DNA of 64,000 nt from positions 18,852-82,851 of the IMG/VR virus record IMGVR_UViG_3300036760_000945. One strand, written 5' to 3'. Source of the stretch: a virus. Below, piece after piece: positions 8,262-50,047 of this stretch. The notes beneath the pieces are model-generated. The model saw nothing but the letters and a program-made list of their open reading frames with translations. It searched no databases and was not told where the DNA came from. The position numbers were made by a program, and so were the translations under genes. How positions within the stretch are numbered: the stretch's first letter is position 1; every line of letters starts with the position of its first letter.

Positions 8262-11200
8262 CTAGCTCCTCAGCTCCTTCGTGACCGCATCGAGGACAAA
8301 GGAAGAGAGTTTCTCGTTGCCAATATAGATGTTCACAATCTGTGGCGCACCGGCCTTCTTGCCGCCCATTGGAATATAGGATGAACCGCCAGCAATTGTT
8401 ACGCCGACAGGGCGCTGGAAAAGATTATGAATACGTTTCAGACTCTCCCATTCGCTGTGTGGAATTACACGGCCGCCGACGATGCCTTCAGTGCCCTGTT
8501 CGCCAACTTCGACTGCGCCACTAGCAAGACCTCGAAGAATACCACCTGCGGCTTTCATGCTTTCAAGGTTATGAGCCAATACTCCGCCAGCAAAATAGCT
8601 ATGTGTCTCGTCATCCGTTCCGAAGTTATAGGACGGTACCTGTTCTCCGTTCCAGGAAAGATCTGTTACAACAACGTCTTTTCCATCTTTGTCCAGTAGC
8701 GCATCTCCAAGTCGTAAAGTCTTGGCATGTGCCCACTCGCCATTAATAGACATTGGGTGTCCCGCTGTTACGCCAAGGTGCTTATTGATAGTAATATAGC
8801 CACAGTTGCTTTTAGCAGAGTGATGAAACACTTTATTGACCCTCGCATTTACCGGCTCGCGAGTCTTGATATTCATCGAGAGAACCATATCTCCAACCTG
8901 AACCTCTTCAATGGGTTTGGTCAAGCCGGCTACCATTGTTATCATTGTTCCTGCAATGAAGCATGGTGCATTTCCTTCACCTTCGCCATGCTCGGTTGTG
9001 ACTCCTGGCATCCGTAGAAGTTGATCAATCCACTTTTTGAGAATAGGTATAGAAGTGGACATGGCGGTTTGCCAATCCATTAGGGCATCGTCTGTCAATA
9101 GACTGAGTGCGCCCTTGGCATTATCGGCATAGATCTGGAACTTGACCATTGCGTCGTTCAGATCTTTTTGCTGTTTGGCATAGAAGGCAGTAATACCAGC
9201 CGACTCTTTCTCGAGCGCCATCTGCTGGATATACTGTGCGCGTTCGAGCTTGGTCTGCTCTTCCTGGAGTATCTTGTTCTGCTGGTAATACTCGATGGAC
9301 TTATCGAGTTGTTCCTGTTGCATCTTTAGATTCTCTTTGAACTGTTTGTTCTGAAGAGCAAAACGCTGATCTTCAAGTTTCCAGAGTTCCTTCTGCCTAT
9401 TCTTTTGTTTATCGATCTGCTCACCTTCAAGATCGTGCATAATTGTCTCGCGGCCCATTTGCCGTTCTGCAAGTTTGCGTTCACGCCCAGTCATGAAACG
9501 GATATTTTCGGCGTAGTCTTCCTGGCGCCAGCCCCACTGAAGTTCGCGTGTTTGGGTCTGATAGCCCCAGTCTTGCTGTGTCCAGCCGCGTTGCATTTGC
9601 GTACCGCGTTGATTGAGTGCCATGTTCTCCTGGAACTGCTGCGCGCCAAGGTTCATGCCTCTCTGCTGAAAACCGAATTGCCATCCCTGTTGTTGATAAC
9701 CAAGTGCGCGTTGTGCGTCCTGCAGACCCCAAGTACCGCCCTGGTACAACGGCCCAAACGGCTGCCCGGTCTGTGGATTGATTGTACCCGCATATTGTTG
9801 TATGCCAACGCCGGTCGTAAAGGCCAGATTCTGATTTACACGTTTCATCGCCAGGCCAGCAGAGGCCATTGCCTGATTGTACTGAGACTGGTTCTGCATG
9901 AACTGTAGTGCATACTGGCCACCAATATTGCCAATTGTTTCACCGCTGGCAAGTGTCATTGGCCCACCAGGAATTGCAATACCACCAGCCATGCCAGCAA
10001 TGAAGGGTGCAGCCAGGCCGGTAGAGGTTTGCCAGTTTCTACCCCAGATCTGTTGTGCAGTCTGGAGTCCAGTCTGGCCAACCTGTGCCAAACTACTCTG
10101 TCCCCAATTCAAACCTGTTGGCTGGTTGGTCCCCATACGTATATCGGTCAAGGCCATATTGTTAATACCCATAGTCTGGCCAGTGATCATGGGGAAGCGC
10201 TGGGCCATCAACTGTGGCGATATTCCGCCCGTTGCAGCAAGTGCAGCAACTGCAGTTGGTTGTGCATTATACAACTGGTTATAGAACCATTCCTGGCCTT
10301 TGGGCATTGCACCAGAAGTGAACTGTTGATATAACTGGTTGCCGAGTGCAGGACGGTTAAATTGATAGGCTTGCTGTTGTAACTGCGCACCAATACCAAT
10401 GCGATAATTGGCCTGAGCCTCCTGGGCACTCCAAGTCGCAGTCTGGCGAGCTGCTTCTTCTGGCAACATAGCGACAGCCTCACCACCAGATATATATTCT
10501 GTCTGAAGAGGTGCGGGAGTCCTAGTTAGACCTGCTGCGCGTTGTGCCATCCATGCAGAGTAACGCGCCTTATAAACATCTCCAGCGGGTTTATTGTAAA
10601 GAATACCATTGGCTATTTGGTTATCCAGATACTTTTTCATATCTGTGTCTGTTCGAAGTTGACTTGCCGTTGTGACATTTCCAGGAAGCCACGCTGCAGC
10701 TGCACCAAAACCACTCGTGTATTGTCCACCAAGTCCCAATAGTGCTTGTTGGTTTGCAGTTGGATAGTTTTTACTAATATAGTTGGCCAGAGCACCCTGA
10801 ACTGTAGTGGTTACCCCGGGAATAAGTGCAGTCCCTGCCGTTGTTTGTCCAAGAGCAGGCGGTCCCTGCAGGGTTCCATAAAGAGGAGCTGCCGCAAATG
10901 CACCTGCACCCATACCAGAGGCAGACAAAATACCTGCTGCCAGTTCACCTGGTTGCATACCTTGTTGATATTGTTCAGCAAAGCGCTGCCAATAACTCTG
11001 CGGAAGGTTTTGGTTTGAAACCAGAGTAAATGCTTTGGCAATTGCATCAGGAGCCAGATCTGTTCTTTGGCCCTGAGCGATCTGCATTGTTGTAGAAAGT
11101 GCTTTAACATATTGAGTTGTTCCAGGAAGAGTGCCAGCAAGTTGCCACATTTGTGCATTGGGCTGTCCTGACATCATCTGGCGTAGAACTGTCCATTTCG

Positions 11201-17994: not shown

Positions 17995-19071
17995 TTAGGT
18001 CGGCCAGATGTATTCCGGGACCAGGTTGCGCAGCGTGAAGGTTGCATAGGCGATATCGGGATCAGTCTCAAGTGCTACACCAGCAAAGCGCAGCAGGATA
18101 GACTGGTTGCCAGCCAGGGTAAGGCCGCCAACCTGTGACATCATGACTTTGTTAGCAGCAACCACCAGTGAATAGGGTTCAATGTCCTCGGGTGTATTCA
18201 TCGGAGAGACGGCCTTGACCTCGAAGGATGTGGTATACGGCTTGCCGGACCACTCAGTGCCAACAGCACTACCGGTCAGAAGGGCAGCATAAAGATCGGG
18301 GTTGTTCCATTTGACGGTCATATCGTAGGCCAAGCGCCGCTGAACGATCGTCACATCCTCAAGGAATGGACTGCCATAGACACGCTCTTGACGAATATCA
18401 AGAGGCACATTCTGGAAACCGACGGTTGCGGCAACCACAGGCAGCTCGTCGCCGCCATCGCCAATCTTGAGCCAGCCACCAGTCTGGCAACCTACGGGAA
18501 TTGATTCCCAGGACTCGAACTCGTTTTCCCATGACCACTGGTCCGGTGCATGATCGAGCTCGAACTCGCGCCCGAGCACATCGACACGCATCGTCAGTGG
18601 CGCGTCGTTGGGTAGTACCAGTGAAGCACCCACGATCTTGCAATCCCTGAAGATCTGGCCCAGATCGGTGGCCGGATTAGCCTCCTTGGGCGGGATATGC
18701 TTACGGAAACTCATCCAGGGGACATAAGATGGCTCAGCGGCAAAACCGAAGATATGCTTGACGATGTTCTCTGAATAGTCGTAGTCGTCATCATCACTAT
18801 CAACAGCACCCATGAGACCATACAGCAACCAGCCAAGTGTACTTTCAAGGCGCGGCTGGATCGTAAACCCGCCAGCAACCACGGGTCCGGCCTTATAGGG
18901 GAAAGTTGGCACGGGCACGCCGCCAATCTCCGGGACGCCTTCGCGAACTTCATCCATCACGTCCAGGTCGACCATGGTAGCCCGATGTTTGTACCAGTAG
19001 GGCGGACTGAAATCGCCCATGCCGGCTTGGGGGGCAAAGCCAATTATTGCCGAAGCAGCGGTAATTCCCAT
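17995..19071 (-). CDS. Major tail tube protein
   Basis: 358 aa, start ATG with AAGGAG. It stands between the connector genes and the tail chaperones, where the tube protein is found. The predicted fold is beta-rich, with a short N-terminal G-F-A-P-Q-A-G-M-G segment and no membrane segment, which fits Phage_tail_tube families. Expected to form the rings of the tail tube. The strong hairpin downstream may raise its share of the transcript. Confidence 0.8.
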   Translation of the reverse strand: MGITAASAIIGFAPQAGMGDFSPPYWYKHRATMVDLDVMDEVREGVPEIGGVPVPTFPYKAGPVVAGGFTIQPRLESTLGWLLYGLMGAVDSDDDDYDYSENIVKHIFGFAAEPSYVPWMSFRKHIPPKEANPATDLGQIFRDCKIVGASLVLPNDAPLTMRVDVLGREFELDHAPDQWSWENEFESWESIPVGCQTGGWLKIGDGGDELPVVAATVGFQNVPLDIRQERVYGSPFLEDVTIVQRRLAYDMTVKWNNPDLYAALLTGSAVGTEWSGKPYTTSFEVKAVSPMNTPEDIEPYSLVVAANKVMMSQVGGLTLAGNQSILLRFAGVALETDPDIAYATFTLRNLVPEYIWPT

Positions 19072-24896: not shown

Positions 24897-27563
24897 CTAT
24901 CGAGGCCACGTCGTTGACGAACCTGCCTCGTCTCGCCTGCGGGTACGTACTTCATTTCTATCATGTCGGCGCCCCGAGACAAGTCCAGGGCTATCATCGC
25001 CAGTCTCGCTGCTGTTTTCCTCTCCAAAATCGCCATAATAAGCCCGGATCGCAAACGCACCCATTGCCAACGTTGCAACAACGTCTTGCGCCAGCTTGCC
25101 ACCACTTGCTTTATCCGCGATAGGATCATAGTTTTTTAGTTGGCTTCCTATGCCAGTACAGATCGAAGGCCATGAGAGCATCTTGCTTTCGAGCGATAGT
25201 CTCAGTGCAACAAGGTAACTATACCTTTTTGCGCCCGAAAAGTCAAGACCGGTTATTGAAATGACCGACTTCTTCTTGCCGTAGATATAATCCGTGCTGA
25301 TCAGCTCCGCCGTACTCTTCTGGGGCCCGGTATTGTCCACGGCAGCCAATATGGGTCCATAAGTATCGATCCACTCGATAAAACGGCTCACAAAAGGCAT
25401 GATCGAGCCTGCGCCATTACCCCACCAGAAAGCAACTATTGGACTATGCACTGGCGCCTCTGTGACATCAAAAACGATGATACAGGGAGCATTTCGGGAG
25501 GGTGCCACGCCTGTGCCTGGGTCGCCAATGATGAAATATTGGCGTCCTGCCTTACGTGGCTGTCTGAGATAGAACGCACCCATGTGCGGCAAGGTCTCCA
25601 TCTCATAACCAGCCTCGCCTTTGTCGATGGCATTCAGGACTATCTCTGATTGCCCGGCATCCAAGCAGGGATCAACAGTCGAGGCCGGGAAGTAAGAACC
25701 CTTACCCTGTGGGCGGTCCCCGGTCATGAAACGGTTGTGCAGTTCTTTGGGGATCATCTTCAGCGCAAAGCGGATCTGTTTATCGGTCGTATTCTTGTTA
25801 TACTTGGTGTCAATGTTGAATACCAGCCCGTCCTCTTTGTCCGCTGCTGCCATATCATAGAGTTGCCACAGCTCGGGGTTTTCCCACGGGTTAGAGATGA
25901 GCGAAAGCCGGCCTAGATAGGGGCGGTTCTCGGCAGTGCCGCCAGTAAGGCGGGTGACTAGGTTTGTCACCACCACCCCCAAATCGTCTATTTTCCCGGC
26001 TTCTTCGATATTGATCCAGTCGCCGCGGTAGGAAAAGATGTTTTCTGCAGTCCCCTCCTCACCCAATGTCTGAAATTCCAGAAGCGAGGAGAATTTCTTG
26101 GTGCCAATATAATACTCGAGGGCAACCTGCGGCCAGGGGCGCTTTGGCGCAGAGACAATGAGTTTTTCAAAGGGTGTGCCCTCGACCTGCTCCATTAGCG
26201 CTCGATACATAAGCATTGACTGCCAGGCACTGGGTGCAACATTCATAAACTTGAATAATTGCGTCAGCGCCGCATGATAGGCGGCACCCATCACCACGCC
26301 GACGGTTTTGCCAGAATTATGAGAGACAACACCCTCCATAACATAATTTTCGTAGCCGGGAACATGGATATCATATAGATCTATTTCTCCAACATCCTCT
26401 ATTTTAGTAATAATTGGTGTATAATAGTCCCACTTATTATTCTTGGGAGAGAAACATGGATCAGGAAGAACTTCAAATACTTGTTGATCAATTTGGGACA
26501 CAGACGGCTGTAGCAAAGCGCCTCGGGATAAGACAGCAAGATCTCTGGTATCTGGTAAAGAAAAATCACTGGCATATTCACTATGATATAACTCGCCGCA
26601 GAAAGAAGGGCTCGAAACTTGATCCTTATTCTCTAATACTGAAACATCTGGGAGATCTTGGTTGGAGTTGCCAGAGAATTGTTGATGCCCTCGAACTAAA
26701 GACCGATCCTGAGCACGTTCGTCGCTGGTTGGTTGTCCATTGTCCCCAAAAACGGAACAGGAAGCACGGTGGTGTGGGGGAAAGAAGTCCTGCCTTTGTC
26801 GATGGTGACTATTATAATAGGAAGGATAATTCTTATAACTTTGTACCCGCGCCAGAGGGGTATATGGGTCAGAAGAAATCAAATGGTTGGGTTGCAGAAC
26901 ATCGTCTTGTCGTTGAAAAGGAACTTGGCCGACTTCTTCATCCGGGCGAGGTTGTACATCATATTGATGGGGATGGAAAGAATAATCTCCCTGGAAACCT
27001 GATGACTTTCCCGACAAATCGCGAACATCTACTGTGGCACTGGGAGCAAATGCAGGCAAAATATGAGGAGCGATTAGAACATCTCCGAGCCGTAGATCGC
27101 GAGTACGTACAAACCCTTGGCTGGCAGTCATAAAACGATGATCCAGAGAGACGGTAATTGTATTACCATTAGAGAAGGAAAGTCTTTTTGCCCTGGCCTT
27201 TCCCTTGTAGAACGGCAGTGTTGCCTGGACCATTGCCCATCCTGATATGCCGCGGGCTAAAACAACTGGCGCCCTCTTATTATCAAGAAGCCACCTAAAT
27301 GATACATATCTCCCAAGTTCTACATCATAGAGATGACTATCAATGTCGGCGCAACTGATCCCACAGATGGCAACAATAAACGATTGCGTTGCCATACACA
27401 TTGTTTCTTGCCATTTACCCTCTGACTCGAAGTTCCAGTCCAGCATCCATCCGTGTTCTTGGTTTGGTTTTCTGAACCAGTAATCACAGAAAATATTGGG
27501 ATTGGCCGCCCCGGCCCTAAGAATTTCAATCTCGGCAGCAGTCATTGCGTGAATCGAGGGCAT
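24897..27563 (-). CDS. terL: Terminase large subunit precursor containing an intein
   Basis: 888 aa precursor; removal of 346 intein residues (71-416) gives about 542 aa, a normal TerL length. The exteins join as C-G-I-S/S-G-K-T, restoring the Walker A loop. Walker B is W-I-N-I-E-E-A-G near 515-522, with the coupling motif I-S-N-P-W-E-N near 555-561. The RNase H-like nuclease shows I-I-G-D-P-G-T-G near 677-684, A-V-D-N-T-G near 740-745 and a late K-L-A-Q-D-V. The enzyme packages DNA into proheads and cuts concatemers. Without splicing the ATPase site is broken, so packaging depends on the intein. Weak site AAGGAA before the ATG. Confidence 0.92.
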   Translation of the reverse strand: MPSIHAMTAAEIEILRAGAANPNIFCDYWFRKPNQEHGWMLDWNFESEGKWQETMCMATQSFIVAICGISCADIDSHLYDVELGRYVSFRWLLDNKRAPVVLARGISGWAMVQATLPFYKGKARAKRLSFSNGNTITVSLDHRFMTASQGFVRTRDLRLGDVLIAPHILPAFAPSATVDVRDLSGKSSGFQGDYSFHPHQYDVQPRPDEEVGQVPFQRQDDVLQPNHLISSDPYTPLARVQSYKNYPSYYNSHHRQRQDFFPPHHRASCSVFGDNGQPTSDERAQDRSLVRGHQQFSGNSNQDLPDVSVLENKDQVSSPSFCGELYHSEYASDFSLPDTRDLAVLSRGALLQPSVSQIDQQVFEVLPDPCFSPKNNKWDYYTPIITKIEDVGEIDLYDIHVPGYENYVMEGVVSHNSGKTVGVVMGAAYHAALTQLFKFMNVAPSAWQSMLMYRALMEQVEGTPFEKLIVSAPKRPWPQVALEYYIGTKKFSSLLEFQTLGEEGTAENIFSYRGDWINIEEAGKIDDLGVVVTNLVTRLTGGTAENRPYLGRLSLISNPWENPELWQLYDMAAADKEDGLVFNIDTKYNKNTTDKQIRFALKMIPKELHNRFMTGDRPQGKGSYFPASTVDPCLDAGQSEIVLNAIDKGEAGYEMETLPHMGAFYLRQPRKAGRQYFIIGDPGTGVAPSRNAPCIIVFDVTEAPVHSPIVAFWWGNGAGSIMPFVSRFIEWIDTYGPILAAVDNTGPQKSTAELISTDYIYGKKKSVISITGLDFSGAKRYSYLVALRLSLESKMLSWPSICTGIGSQLKNYDPIADKASGGKLAQDVVATLAMGAFAIRAYYGDFGEENSSETGDDSPGLVSGRRHDRNEVRTRRRDEAGSSTTWPR
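26420..26425 (+). promoter_or_regulatory. Possible -10 box for the antisense HNH gene
   Basis: TATAAT on the plus strand, 31 nt before the HNH ATG, inside the intein coding sequence. No convincing -35. The predicted start would leave a leader of about 24 nt holding the GGGAGAG site. Confidence 0.4.
26456..27133 (+). CDS. HNH homing endonuclease coded antisense inside the terL intein
   Basis: 225 aa on the strand opposite terL, wholly within the intein. The ATG at 26456 follows GGGAGAG by about 5 nt. The N-terminus has a helix-turn-helix-like segment (T-A-V-A-K-R-L-G-I-R-Q-Q-D-L). The C-terminal half has a clear HNH domain: E-H-R-L-V-V-E-K-E-L-G-R, H-H-I-D-G-D-G-K-N-N, and R-E-H-L-L-W-H. It is presumably the homing endonuclease that mobilises the intein. 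The C-terminal 25 or so codons overlap, in antisense, the conserved block B end of the intein, so the same DNA codes for two constrained proteins there. HNH proteins of this form are common in phages. Confidence 0.88.
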   Translation: MDQEELQILVDQFGTQTAVAKRLGIRQQDLWYLVKKNHWHIHYDITRRRKKGSKLDPYSLILKHLGDLGWSCQRIVDALELKTDPEHVRRWLVVHCPQKRNRKHGGVGERSPAFVDGDYYNRKDNSYNFVPAPEGYMGQKKSNGWVAEHRLVVEKELGRLLHPGEVVHHIDGDGKNNLPGNLMTFPTNREHLLWHWEQMQAKYEERLEHLRAVDREYVQTLGWQS

Positions 27564-30220: not shown

Positions 30221-30524
30221 GATTTTTCTCCTTGCTATCAAGATCTTTGAGTAACAACGAGGTATCCATGCCAATGTCTCCAAGAAACTGGTATAGCGAG
30301 GTTTCGAGGCCCGATATCTGCTCGTGGGGCAAACTAAACTGGAGATGATAATTTATCGCTTCAAGTACTTCGTGTAACACCGTTGACTCCTGCGACTGCC
30401 TGTGTTGGTCCGGGTCAACATTGATAATCTGTTTCACGGTATGGAGTCTCCCGGCCTGATCCATGCCGCCGTTCTCCATAGAGGGCGAATATTTCAATTT
30501 ATAATTGTAGCCGAATATTCTCAT
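30213..30524 (-). CDS. Putative zinc metallopeptidase-like small protein
   Basis: 103 aa. The segment T-V-L-H-E-V-L-E-A-I-N-Y (about residues 48-59) followed by L-P-H-E-Q-I-S-G-L-E matches a phage family with a degenerate H-E-x-x-x metallopeptidase-like helix. The ATG overlaps the HNH stop by 4 nt and its ribosome site lies inside the HNH gene. Confidence 0.6.
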   Translation of the reverse strand: MRIFGYNYKLKYSPSMENGGMDQAGRLHTVKQIINVDPDQHRQSQESTVLHEVLEAINYHLQFSLPHEQISGLETSLYQFLGDIGMDTSLLLKDLDSKEKNHD

Positions 30525-31126
30525 TTTGTCTCCTTCTTTCCTACTTTCTGCAGATAATTAATTGCACTTATTAGAATTTCTGTCGAGTCGTTGGCACTGC
30601 CAAGCATTGTATTGCATTTAGTACATAGAAATCCACGGATTTTACCCGTAGAATGATCATGATCTACGGCAAGATGTCTCCCATTGGGAGAACCGCCACA
30701 GATAGCGCAAATGCCTCCTTGATTAACAAGGATCACACTATATTCCTCAAGAGTTAGGCCATGGTCTCTTTTAAGACTGCCTCTTCTGCCTCTGATAGTA
30801 CCATTTTCTTTGTGGCTTCTGTGATATTCTCTGTTCTTGGCGCGAATTTCTTCTCCTTTTTCTTTATAATAACTGATCCCATAGGAGCATCTTTCCTTTT
30901 TATGCTCCTCATAATATTTTTTGCTACCGGCTACTATTTCTTCACTGTGCCTCTGGCGATATTCGGCTTGTTTAGCCAAAATAATTTCCTTATTCTTCTT
31001 ATAATAATTATGACTTCTGGAGGTAATTTTCCTCTTGTTTTCTATATAATACCTGGCATCATAGGCACTTGTTTCCTCTTTATGTTTCTTGCGATACTCT
31101 CTCTGATATTCTCTCCTATTTGCCAT
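30521..31126 (-). CDS. HNH/endonuclease VII-like nuclease with N-terminal repeats
   Basis: 201 aa from the ATG at 31126 (AGGAGA). Residues about 1-120 consist of degenerate Lys/Glu/Tyr repeats of about 17 residues around Y-Y-K-K-N-K-E-I, likely DNA-contacting helices. The C-terminal domain is recombination-endonuclease-VII-like: C-A-I-C-G, V-D-H-D-H-S-T-G, G-F-L-C-T-K-C-N. It is probably a mobile free-standing nuclease. Both ends overlap neighbours: the start lies in the tail of the upstream gene, and the last codons hold the ribosome site and start of the next gene. Confidence 0.8.
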   Translation of the reverse strand: MANRREYQREYRKKHKEETSAYDARYYIENKRKITSRSHNYYKKNKEIILAKQAEYRQRHSEEIVAGSKKYYEEHKKERCSYGISYYKEKGEEIRAKNREYHRSHKENGTIRGRRGSLKRDHGLTLEEYSVILVNQGGICAICGGSPNGRHLAVDHDHSTGKIRGFLCTKCNTMLGSANDSTEILISAINYLQKVGKKETK

Positions 31127-31394
31127 CGGTCTTCTCCTTTTTTGATAGAAGCCAAAAAATAGCCAGGTATTGATCGGCAATGCGCCGATCGCTTTCTTTC
31201 TCTTGTTCACTCAGTTCCTTGTATTTCCGGGACATTTGCGCGGTCCAGCGATCAACGAAGTCCTTCGGCAGCGTCCAGGTGCCGTTATCGTTGAATACAC
31301 CCTTGCCGAACATATAACTGAGCCACTTCGTCCATACTCGGTGTGCGTGGTCTGCTATTGCCTCTCGCAGAGGTTGTTTGACATCATCGCCCAT
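31116..31394 (-). CDS. Conserved phage protein of unknown function
   Basis: 92 aa. The pattern H-R-V-W-T-K-W-L-S-Y-M-F, V-D-R-W, Y-K-E-L-S-E-Q-E-K-E-S-D-R recurs in many phage genomes, but no function is known to me. First gene after the extended -10 promoter at 31426-31434; leader about 25 nt with only a weak AGG site. Confidence 0.7.
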   Translation of the reverse strand: MGDDVKQPLREAIADHAHRVWTKWLSYMFGKGVFNDNGTWTLPKDFVDRWTAQMSRKYKELSEQEKESDRRIADQYLAIFWLLSKKEKTDGK

Positions 31395-35402: not shown

Positions 35403-35700
35403 TTGATTTCTCCAAGTCGGAAACTGATTTGCCGCAACTTCTACAATGGCCGCTCGCGGGAAATGGATAGCCACAATCACATAACCCGTAGTCTTGGGCC
35501 AACTCGTTGACAATTCGCCGGATCTCGTCCTTATTCGAGGCCTCTGCCTCCGAGATGCCGGTGTACGTCTCCAGATCGACTACTTTCTTGCACACCGGGC
35601 ATCTCCAGGTGCGAAATCCACACGTTGGAGCATAGGGGCAATTATCATCTATAAATCCACAACTTGGACACTCGACAATTATAATATAGCGATCTCCCAT
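35395..35700 (-). CDS. Zinc-ribbon protein
   Basis: 101 aa with three Cys pairs: C-P-S-C-G near residues 11-15, C-P-V-C near 34-37, and C-D-C-G plus C-R-S-C-G near the C-terminus. ATG with AGGAGG 6 nt upstream. Its first residues M-G-D-R-Y are identical to those of the HNH gene just upstream, although the codons differ, and its start lies inside the last codons of that HNH gene. Confidence 0.7.
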   Translation of the reverse strand: MGDRYIIIVECPSCGFIDDNCPYAPTCGFRTWRCPVCKKVVDLETYTGISEAEASNKDEIRRIVNELAQDYGLCDCGYPFPASGHCRSCGKSVSDLEKSSA

Positions 35701-36290
35701 AGCTTTCCTCCTTCAATTTTCTTAATATTTCGATGACAAGATACACACAATGTTGTTCCGTTTCCAGGATCCCACAATTCTTTACAGGACAAAGCGTCTT
35801 TAAGAGAAGATATGTGATTCTTTCTAAGAACTAAAGCAAATGGAGTTAAATGATGTGCATTCAACTTCACCAATCTTCCCCTTGCGCCACACTTTATACA
35901 GGTTTTCTTGTCACGCTTAAATACTTTTATTTTCCATTCCTTATAAATATCGGAATTTCTTACTTGCATATATAAAGACGTTATACCTCCTCTCCATCTA
36001 GGGCTTTTTTCTCCTGCCTGTACTCCCTTTAGTCCCCTATTCCATACACTATGTGTTCGACTCCAGTTTTTATCTCCTTTCTGGGCCACACCAGATAAAC
36101 TCAATAATCCTTGGGCGAACAGACCCTTCTTTGTATCAGAAATCTTCTTTTTCTTCTCTTTGCTACAAGGAATACCTGGCCTAACCCTTGAGTTATGCCC
36201 CGAGACAAATTGAGGAAGTCCGTAATATTTATGGTGTGGCCGAAATGCTATATTTTCACCACAGCCACATCCACAATATCTATCGCCCAT
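35679..36290 (-). CDS. HNH endonuclease inserted at the 5' end of the zinc-ribbon gene
   Basis: 203 aa from the ATG at 36290 (AAGGAG, 7 nt spacing). The first five residues M-G-D-R-Y copy the start of the downstream gene, then C-G-C-G-C-G begins the nuclease. A NUMOD3-like segment (S-K-E-K-K-K-K-I-S-D-T-K-K-G) near residues 43-56 is followed by an HNH core: C-I-K-C-G, N-A-H-H-L-T-P and C-V-S-C-H-R-N. The last codons contain the ribosome site and first codons of the zinc-ribbon gene. Probably a mobile endonuclease. Confidence 0.85.
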   Translation of the reverse strand: MGDRYCGCGCGENIAFRPHHKYYGLPQFVSGHNSRVRPGIPCSKEKKKKISDTKKGLFAQGLLSLSGVAQKGDKNWSRTHSVWNRGLKGVQAGEKSPRWRGGITSLYMQVRNSDIYKEWKIKVFKRDKKTCIKCGARGRLVKLNAHHLTPFALVLRKNHISSLKDALSCKELWDPGNGTTLCVSCHRNIKKIEGGKLWEIAIL

Positions 36291-36323
36291 TGACATTCTC
36301 CTTCTTGGATAGGCATCTCCTTG

Positions 36324-48306: not shown

Positions 48307-48511
48307 GGAAGATGACTACGAGATCTCGTCAGTGCAACGTATATATGGCAAGAGTGGTACCTGTTATACCGTTCCCCCTCATGGAAGTATCCTGTATTCC
48401 TCCACTGAGTTAGATTATGTCTTCCTTTCCCATAAGGGACAATTGGTATTAATTATTGAAGAAGAAGAGATTGAAGCATTTGTGTATGATTTAGAGTATA
48501 TTAGAGTCTAA
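48275..48511 (+). CDS. Unknown protein (78 aa)
   Basis: ATG at 48275 with GAGGAG 7 nt upstream, inside the end of the previous gene. Beta-rich with acidic runs (Y-E-E-D-D-Y-E, I-E-E-E-E-I-E). Last gene before the split ssb locus. Confidence 0.6.
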   Translation: MRATRTQREYEEDDYEISSVQRIYGKSGTCYTVPPHGSILYSSTELDYVFLSHKGQLVLIIEEEEIEAFVYDLEYIRV

Positions 48512-48538
48512 TTCAAACTTTCAAAAGGAGAAAACAAA

Positions 48539-48598
48539 ATGTCTATTCATAAGGTAATCGCAGCAGGTTATTTGGGTCGTGATCCTGAAATGCCTTGA
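48539..48598 (+). pseudogene. Truncated 5' remnant of ssb
   Basis: AAAAGGAG and ATG followed by 18 codons matching the start of the intact ssb at 49092 in 16 of 18 residues, then Pro and stop. Only 38 of 54 nt match, and 12 of 18 codons differ. It is best read as the original start of ssb, cut off by insertion of the HNH gene. A 19-residue peptide may still be made. Confidence 0.85.
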
Positions 48599-48623
48599 CC
48601 CCGAAAAGAAAATATGATATATT
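48595..48623 (+). promoter_or_regulatory. Promoter at the HNH insertion junction
   Basis: TTGACC (48595-48600), 17-nt spacer, TATATT (48618-48623) preceded by TGA. It begins exactly at the end of the ssb remnant. The predicted start (about 48630) falls in the HNH ribosome site, which weakens the case. Confidence 0.5.
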
Positions 48624-48640
48624 GAACAAGGAGATAAATT

Positions 48641-49105
48641 ATGAAGTCTTGTTCAGTATGTCATATCCCTAAATCGCTTGAGGAGTTTAATAAACGGAGA
48701 TACTCCTCAGATGGTTATCGTTCTGAGTGTCGGGAGTGTCAGCACAAGGCACACCAGGCTTATTACTATATTGGGGGAGGCAAGAACCTAAAAGAGCAGT
48801 ATTATCTTGTCCATCGAGAGGAATTGCTACCCAGGCTACGACTCCACAGTGGTCCAACTCACTATAATCCCGAGACAGCTCCTGCACATAAAGCTGTTCT
48901 TCAAGCGCTACATCAAGGTACTCTTGTTCGTCCTAGTAACTGTGAAAATTGTAGTATTCCCTGTAAGCCGCAAGCTCACCATCATCATGGGTATGATGAA
49001 GAATATCATCTTGATATTATATGGCTTTGCATACCCTGTCATAGTTTAGCAGACAATTCTGGGTTTGCAAGCAGACTAAAGGAGAATAATAATGAGCATC
49101 CATAA
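48641..49105 (+). CDS. HNH endonuclease inserted at the 5' end of ssb
   Basis: 154 aa, ATG with AAGGAG 7 nt upstream. The N-terminal zinc motif C-S-V-C-H near residues 4-8 and C-R-E-C near 32-35 is typical of phage HNH proteins. The HNH core is C-E-N-C near 105-108, A-H-H-H-H-G-Y and W-L-C-I-P-C-H. Its last codons run through the ribosome site and first four codons of ssb (14-nt overlap). It is probably a homing endonuclease that targets the ssb start. Confidence 0.88.
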   Translation: MKSCSVCHIPKSLEEFNKRRYSSDGYRSECRECQHKAHQAYYYIGGGKNLKEQYYLVHREELLPRLRLHSGPTHYNPETAPAHKAVLQALHQGTLVRPSNCENCSIPCKPQAHHHHGYDEEYHLDIIWLCIPCHSLADNSGFASRLKENNNEHP

Positions 49106-49526
49106 AATTATCGCAGTAGGGTACTTAGGCAGAGATCCAGAGATGAAATACTTGCCCAGCGGTACTGCCGTAGTTAACTTCTCTATCGCAACCGATCGTG
49201 TATGGACTAATACTGAAGGCGAGAAGGTCAAGGTTACTAGTTGGTTCCGTGTCTCGGTCTTCGGAAAGATGGCCGAGAATTGCAATCAGTATCTCAGGAA
49301 GGGCAGCCAAGTCTTTGTCGAAGGACACCTGACTTCTGATCCTACTACTGGTGGCCCCAAGGTGTTCACAAGGCAGGATGGGACTATTGGTTCTTCCTAT
49401 GAACTCTTCGCAGAGACAGTAAACTTCCTGAGCAAGGCTCCTAGTAATGATAGTGCTGAGGGCGCTACTCAAACAACACTGCCCACAGCCACGGCGCCAG
49501 CCGGCGAAGAGGATGTACCATTCTAG
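49092..49526 (+). CDS. ssb: Single-stranded DNA-binding protein
   Basis: 144 aa. Residues 1-110 are an SSB OB-fold: G-Y-L-G-R-D-P-E-M, V-N-F-S-I-A-T-D, W-F-R-V-S-V-F-G-K, V-F-V-E-G-H-L. A Ser/Thr/Ala linker follows, and the C-terminal E-E-D-V-P-F is the acidic tip that recruits replication proteins. The ribosome site AAAGGAG lies inside the HNH gene. The first 18 codons are a differently coded version of the remnant at 48539. Confidence 0.93.
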   Translation: MSIHKIIAVGYLGRDPEMKYLPSGTAVVNFSIATDRVWTNTEGEKVKVTSWFRVSVFGKMAENCNQYLRKGSQVFVEGHLTSDPTTGGPKVFTRQDGTIGSSYELFAETVNFLSKAPSNDSAEGATQTTLPTATAPAGEEDVPF

Positions 49527-50047
49527 GTTATCTCTCTAACCTTGCCCTCGATTACTTCTTGGGGCTGGTCAGCAGTGATTTCGACAGTTGTTACTCTTTC
49601 CCTCTGTGTAATAACCGCTGTGCCCGGACGGAGCGTAGGCCCCGTGAGTTTCTTTAGATACTCTTCAGCTATTCTGCTGGACTCCGGGGTTGGCCCGCCT
49701 TTCTCTCCAAGTTGGAGTGCCAATCTATCCTCAATCTGGGCAAGCCTGAGCTCAAGTGACAGCACATCCCCTTGAGACAGGTTGGCCTCAGCAGCACGGG
49801 CTAATAGCTTATGAAGCAAGCCCCGATGCACCTCTTGAACCTTCTCGTAGTCTTCCCTCAACATTGCGCTTCGTTGCTGCACAAGTGGCGCTGCTATATC
49901 GGGATCTTCGTTCAAGCATTTACTCAATGTCCAGGCACTGATCCCTGCTTTCTTACAAGCATCTGCCTTCGTCATTCCCTCGTCGCCAACAAGGCGCAAT
50001 GCTTCAAGAACCTTCGCTCGCTTCATTTTCTTCAGTTGCTCGTTCAT
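49523..50047 (-). CDS. HTH protein, possible terminase small subunit
   Basis: 174 aa. A homeodomain-like HTH near residues 24-47 (M-T-K-A-D-A-C-K-K-A-G-I-S-A-W-T-L) is followed by a long coiled-coil region and a beta-like C-terminus. This order fits small terminases, which bind pac/cos DNA, and none was found next to terL. A transcriptional regulator is the alternative. It lies opposite to its neighbours, overlapping the ssb end by 4 nt, and its ATG stands only about 2-3 nt from the expected transcription start. Confidence 0.6.
   Translation of the reverse strand: MNEQLKKMKRAKVLEALRLVGDEGMTKADACKKAGISAWTLSKCLNEDPDIAAPLVQQRSAMLREDYEKVQEVHRGLLHKLLARAAEANLSQGDVLSLELRLAQIEDRLALQLGEKGGPTPESSRIAEEYLKKLTGPTLRPGTAVITQRERVTTVEITADQPQEVIEGKVREIT

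Follow-up and report, generated by a model that had tools for sequence, protein, structure and literature searches.

Homing elements that lie within coding sequence usually need an intron or an intein for the host gene to survive. Synthetic cleave-and-rescue systems and the recoded rescue alleles of gene drives are designed so that a nuclease is linked to a synonymously different part of its target gene. In Aeromonas phage Aeh1, the HNH homing gene mobE splits the essential gene nrdA without an intron, and two working halves are kept. One such split reductase gene is mentioned in PMC10448857. In the mitochondria of the fungi Allomyces and Glomus, homing-type ORFs in atp6, atp9, cox2 and nad3 bring a foreign C-terminus; the native ends match relatives at 91–98% of bases and the inserted ends at 64–81% (PMC3630166). 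Similar C-terminal duplications are described in Endoconidiophora (PMC6279837) and N-terminal host-gene duplications in Tremella (PMC7315562). The SegG gene of phage T4 lies between genes 32 and 59 and targets gene 32, which encodes the T4 ssDNA-binding protein (PMC2988022). It is a standard idea that acquisition of a free-standing homing gene renders the recipient resistant, its target being replaced by that of the donor (PMC12724721).

We analyzed a 64,000-nucleotide window of viral DNA (positions 18,852 to 82,851 of the IMG/VR record IMGVR_UViG_3300036760_000945) in which the first 18 codons of ssb, the ssDNA-binding protein gene, occur on both sides of a nuclease gene. The upstream copy is henceforth referred to as the stub and the downstream one as the working copy. 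The features of the locus, in window coordinates, are as follows.

48520–48538, + strand: ribosome-binding region (AAAGGAG) of the truncated ssb copy, by sequence reading
48539–48592, + strand: stub, ssb codons 1–18, matching the intact ssb start at 16/18 residues and 38/54 bases
48593–48598, + strand: CCT TGA, comprising the stub's stop and the left boundary of the insert
48641–49105, + strand: HNH/His-Me-finger nuclease gene of 154 aa, assigned to the phrog_2340 family (E=3.6e-18 and family alignment)
49092–49145, + strand: working copy of ssb codons 1–18, overlapping the nuclease ORF by 14 bases
49092–49526, + strand: intact ssb of 144 aa (PF00436, E=2.7e-29), nearest to Chloroflexota SSBs (56–58%)
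49523–50047, − strand: HTH gene convergent to ssb, with a similar convergent gene in uninserted relatives (L218 and L205)

The gene upstream of the stub stops at 48511. The stub (48539–48592) reads MSIHKVIAAGYLGRDPEM, and its TGA stop (48596–48598) is the second codon past codon 18. The intact ssb (49092–49526) begins MSIHKIIAVGYLGRDPEM and has its own ribosome-binding site and start inside the insert. The nuclease ORF is flanked on either side by the stub and the working copy of one ssb end, and a search of the whole 82,851-base viral contig found the ssb start sequence in these two places only. A preliminary description had reported that codons 1–18 are present twice, once in a truncated copy and again as the start of the intact gene, that the proteins match at 16/18 residues and the DNA at 38/54 bases, and that 12 of 18 codons are changed; we confirmed each of these points. 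Its statement that the upstream copy ends in a stop also held, although the stop lies one codon past the homology and not at its end. Likewise, the intact gene does lie behind the HNH gene, with the correction that the nuclease ORF runs into the new start by 14 bases. The nearest matches of the intact protein suggest, by sequence similarity, a Chloroflexota host for the phage.

This arrangement is most readily compared with the Allomyces and Glomus insertions, in which an endonuclease ORF also sits within an essential gene and the two gene ends differ chiefly by synonymous changes. There a divergent foreign end restores the gene while the native one persists as a stub, as we propose for ssb. 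Those cases are mitochondrial, involve LAGLIDADG or GIY-YIG enzymes and replace the 3′ end, and their native alleles were identified from relatives, whereas the window holds an HNH gene at the 5′ end of a phage gene and the native allele is assigned only tentatively, by position, with third-position GC content (GC3) leaning the other way. As in Tremella, a duplicated 5′ gene part lies beside a mobile element, and there too foreign sequence was proposed to have taken the place of part of a gene. The Tremella elements are described as introns with several RT-PCR outcomes, whereas no intron was detectable in the window. In Aeh1, too, an essential phage gene is broken up by an HNH gene (mobE) with no intron involved, but nrdA is kept as two halves whereas ssb is rebuilt by a second 5′ end. 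T4 SegG shares with our locus a free-standing nuclease gene adjoining the phage's ssDNA-binding protein gene; it is an intergenic GIY-YIG gene, and the sections of PMC2988022 on SegG describe no split ssb and no stub.

The duplication of the ssb start is more than chance. At the protein level, the stub and the working copy gave a segment-pair score of 88; the baseline, 139 mismatched left and right flank pairs around nuclease genes of the same family, averaged 34 (sd 8.8). Of the mismatched pairs, one reached 126 and the others 50 at most. None of 137 other ssb loci had an additional N-terminus of the ssb type. The homology between the copies ends at codon 18 and is absent from the 5′ leaders. 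Both share SIHK.IA.GYLGRDPEM, and they are identical to each other at 16/18 residues but to all other loci at no more than 13/18; being mutually closest, they point to one ssb lineage as the source of both. The left junction of the insert had no match elsewhere in IMG/VR, from which near-identical records may be missing, and the arrangement is known from one contig, as would be expected if metagenome assembly had joined two ssb alleles into a chimera. However, what lies at the break is an entire nuclease gene equipped with a ribosome-binding site of its own, and both sides are in frame with sensible starts and stops. We give an assembly artefact only a slim chance.

The two copies differ at 12 of 18 codons, and the divergence is mostly synonymous: ten changes are silent and two are conservative replacements (V6I and A9V). 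A stub without evident function is expected to decay. If the start of ssb had been duplicated in place and the stub had then drifted neutrally, 16 random base changes should have produced about 9.7 residue changes, and two or fewer were obtained in 0 of 20,000 simulations, whichever copy was taken as the ancestor. Neutral decay is thus refuted, barring a stub whose coding sequence is itself selected, as that of a leader peptide, and we regard in-place duplication as having next to no likelihood. Since neutral decay is excluded by the simulation, the copies diverged while both served functional ssb genes, and one of them therefore derives from another ssb allele. The working copy had been called recoded. 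We found nothing beyond natural divergence: base identity was 38 against 40.2 ± 2.3 expected under random synonymous codon choice (P=0.23), so the divergence is saturated, further recoding is not detectable and selection for immunity is not visible. Selected recoding past saturation was accordingly dropped as a candidate. Like the synthetic rescue alleles, the locus links a nuclease to a synonymously different copy of part of a gene; here the divergence looks natural and any resistance is putative.

We assessed whether the nuclease belongs to a family with a record of insertion. No Pfam match above the cut-off was found for the nuclease ORF; phrog_2340 is annotated as 'endonuclease'. In an alignment of ten sequences, C4, C7, C30, C33, C101, C104, H113, H114, W128, C130 and H134 are invariant, and the window nuclease retains the zinc-finger-type cysteines and the HH of the family. 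The last histidine of the HxxxH motif, conserved in 67 of 69 relatives, is replaced by D in the window nuclease (HxxxD), as it is in one of the 69 (L169). Nuclease activity is uncertain because this H-to-D change affects a nearly invariant residue. In Sf6, Sortsne, Yersinia phage 30.14 and an IMG/VR sequence (L270), genes of the family adjoin the 3′ end of ssb. In the Seunavirus GAP31 (L081, 2961–3560), a member has entered precisely at the stop codon of a T7-like helicase gene (DNDTPF-stop), lengthening the helicase by 15 residues, and in EC152 (L093), which is 98.9% identical to GAP31 over the shared part, the site is empty. This presence/absence polymorphism was seen for GAP31 against EC152, and the window was compared with distant uninserted relatives only. 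The phrog_2340 family therefore has the behaviour of a mobile gene that settles at the ends of replication genes. The Sf6 ssb (DDSDIPF) and the Kashira helicase (DDDDDDSCPF), each next to a family member, likewise end in an acidic tip with a terminal PF, and acidic-tip codons may be a preferred target of these nucleases. The window gene shares with Sf6 gp26, GAP31_256 and the Sortsne and Yersinia phage 30.14 genes the family and a place beside ssb or a helicase gene. Those genes are at 3′ ends, and in GAP31 the member takes the place of a stop codon and no stub is seen; unlike them, the window member sits at the 5′ end of ssb.

The 3′ positions also bear on another origin of the stub, in which two complete, diverged ssb genes flanked the nuclease gene and a deletion removed the first from codon 19 onwards. 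Family members beside an ssb 3′ end in four phages are consistent with this, as is Yersinia phage 30.14, in which two adjacent genes annotated ssb precede the nuclease gene. A second ssb-type start was nevertheless found at none of the 137 related loci, and the 48 bases between the stub and the nuclease gene held, by reading, no remnant of an ssb 3′ end. We consider such a tandem pair quite improbable.

A scan for flank duplications covered about 68 loci with nucleases of this family. At one locus (L171, 1577–3296), a capsid-protein-like gene precedes the nuclease gene, and the C-terminus of the capsid-like gene (LIDLEAY) recurs beyond the nuclease gene (score 49). This is possibly a mirror-image 3′ duplication, tangled with intron-like sequence. 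A second candidate (L163) resembles a domain repeated between adjacent genes and is not clearly an insertion scar. In Papaline, a 5′ duplicate of the exonuclease was not seen upstream. The database record of Sf6 gp26 notes '14 residues identical to E. coli SSB'; we did not use it as a mirror case because no SSB remnant was seen in gp26 by eye.

We searched for an allele of this ssb without the insert. The SSB protein was searched in phages, plasmids, GTDB, 400 Chloroflexota genomes and IMG/VR; phage DNA, degenerate DNA for the SIHK..IA.GYLG start, the neighbouring gene and terminase relatives were also searched. Nothing nearer than about 60% protein identity was found in any of these searches, and the IMG/VR, GTDB, phage and plasmid collections held no empty ssb allele close enough for DNA comparison. 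Distant relatives share the terminase at 52% (the contig of L201), 46% (L218) and 43% (L205) identity, and in all three ssb begins after an unrelated gene and no nuclease gene precedes it. The convergent HTH gene after ssb was recognized in L218 by a scored match and in L205 by position and reading, unscored. Given these terminase relatives, the simplest view is that the window lineage gained the nuclease gene, at family-level divergence. The comparison with uninserted relatives that the preliminary description had called for was thus possible at 43–52% terminase identity, and none was close enough for codons 1–18 to be compared as DNA.

A self-splicing intron with a duplicated 5′ exon would give the same outline. 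In that case the stub would be spliced to codon 19 and both starts would yield SSB; by sequence reading, stub codon 18 joined to codon 19 would indeed encode an SSB-like protein. A T is expected directly before a group I 5′ splice site, and the stub's last base is not T. Only 88 of the 553 bases of the unit (48 + 40) lie outside the nuclease ORF, too little for an intron core, which makes this alternative very unlikely, and we give it hardly any weight. Rfam returned no group I or group II match in the region. This negative carries little weight because a control on intron-like loci likewise gave nothing. One case of a real intron with an N-terminal duplication is known from Tremella nad4 (PMC7315562).

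Which of the two copies is native was judged by position and by composition. Position favours the stub, which has its own leader and adjoins the preceding gene, and we infer that the working copy is the imported one, acquired through homing or co-conversion from the ssb of another phage. GC3 mildly favours the working copy as native, with 0.278 for the stub, 0.50 for the working copy and 0.508 for the rest of ssb. Overall codon usage had no signal discriminating the copies (mean log-likelihood −1.099 for the stub and −1.113 for the working copy) and was dropped as a guide to polarity. In the opposite polarity, the left flank, the stub and the nuclease gene would form one block co-converted from another phage, so that the downstream ssb would be native including its codons 1–18, the stub would be the donor's and no gene end would have been replaced. 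The left side is AT-richer (GC 0.401 for the upstream genes, 0.428 for the nuclease gene and 0.507 for ssb), and A9 of the stub is unusual among ssb relatives whereas V9 of the working copy is typical. Yet the stub is in frame after its own leader and next to the preceding gene, like the ssb of uninserted relatives; the GC3 value comes from 18 codons only, and 7% of the phage's other genes have a first-18-codon GC3 as low. Moreover, the donor would also need a stub, and the same insertion event must then be assumed there. We regard this reversal as unlikely. Both polarities share the anatomy and a foreign allele, and they differ in which piece is foreign.

The explanation that we favour, and judge probable, is that ssb was invaded at codon 18/19 by a mobile nuclease cassette and that a divergent 5′ end brought in with the cassette restores the gene. 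This explanation builds on the anatomy of the locus, on divergence shaped by purifying selection, on the lack of a nuclease gene at the ssb of relatives and on the insertion behaviour of the nuclease's own relatives. A free-standing phrog_2340 HNH gene would have inserted between codons 18 and 19 of ssb, placed there by homing or by illegitimate repair. The cassette would have consisted of the nuclease gene and, fused to it, a divergent allele of codons 1–18 with its own ribosome-binding site, and no splicing device. The gene would thereby have been rebuilt as a chimera of new codons 1–18 and native codon 19 onwards, leaving the old 5′ end as the stub. The earlier proposals that ssb is interrupted by a gene from a mobile nuclease family, that a truncated 5′ copy is left and that the divergent copy restores the gene are thus supported.

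The divergent copy may also protect the new allele, which we consider possible but doubtful. In this case the target would lie across the codon 18/19 junction, which the insert disrupts on the left and sequence divergence changes on the right. A role in immunity needs a site spanning the junction, because the stub would preserve any site wholly within codons 1–18. Two further candidate features lie at the left end of the insert.

48595–48623, + strand: promoter-like site, TTGACC-17-TATATT with TG before the second hexamer (10/12 matches)
48596–48611, + strand: TGACCCCGAAAAGAAA, a 13/16 match to the rebuilt empty junction (stub codons 14–18 plus codon 19; P=0.064 against shuffles)

Nine promoter-like sites occur in the region against 5.1 ± 2.2 in shuffles, which is weak support for the first. 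The second is suggestive only; it could be an operator resembling the homing site or, possibly, an older, third echo of ssb codons 15–19 (DPEKK). I-TevI of T4 is autorepressed through an operator that is similar to the homing site of the enzyme and lies across its promoter (PMC2988022). The likeness of 48596–48611 to that operator is a lead, not a result. In its fullest form, the proposal would be an intron-free 'cut and rescue' cassette: the HNH enzyme would target ssb across codon 18/19 and carry a cut-resistant synonymous 5′ end, so that each invasion would replace the ssb start and create an immune allele, perhaps with an operator copy of the target in the promoter. We advance this version tentatively and hold it to be on the unlikely side. 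If true, the target would be an essential spot that the phage cannot escape by gene loss.

The favoured explanation implies that a spare, divergent gene start appears to keep ssb alive in place of an intron or intein. Gene-end rescue is known in fungal mitochondria, and a search, limited to the open-access literature, found no earlier phage report of a stub with a replaced 5′ end. If the reading is true, a phage 5′-end version on a replication gene would show gene-end rescue to be a general solution and would add a natural example of the logic behind recoded rescue alleles. It would also be a way for mobile nucleases to join foreign segments to essential phage genes. The immune-rescue function of the divergent ssb start is a hypothesis.

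Other features were noted in the window. Two further putative mobile nuclease genes lie at 30521–31210 (− strand; Endonuclease_7 type, E=4.2e-23) and 35679–36296 (− strand; HNH_2 type, E=4.3e-5), and flank duplication was not seen around the other nuclease genes of the window. An ORF of 3004 aa has a HINT domain in its C-terminal part (8262–10262, − strand; PF07591, E=1.4e-13). The large terminase gene (24897–27563, − strand) contains an intein at residues 120–416 (PF14890, E=5.1e-12). The internal linker of the intein is the antisense of an HNH gene at 26414–27133 (+ strand; HNH_3, E=8.9e-9; PHROG HNH, E=2.3e-17), and a homing nuclease encoded antisense within an intein is unusual.
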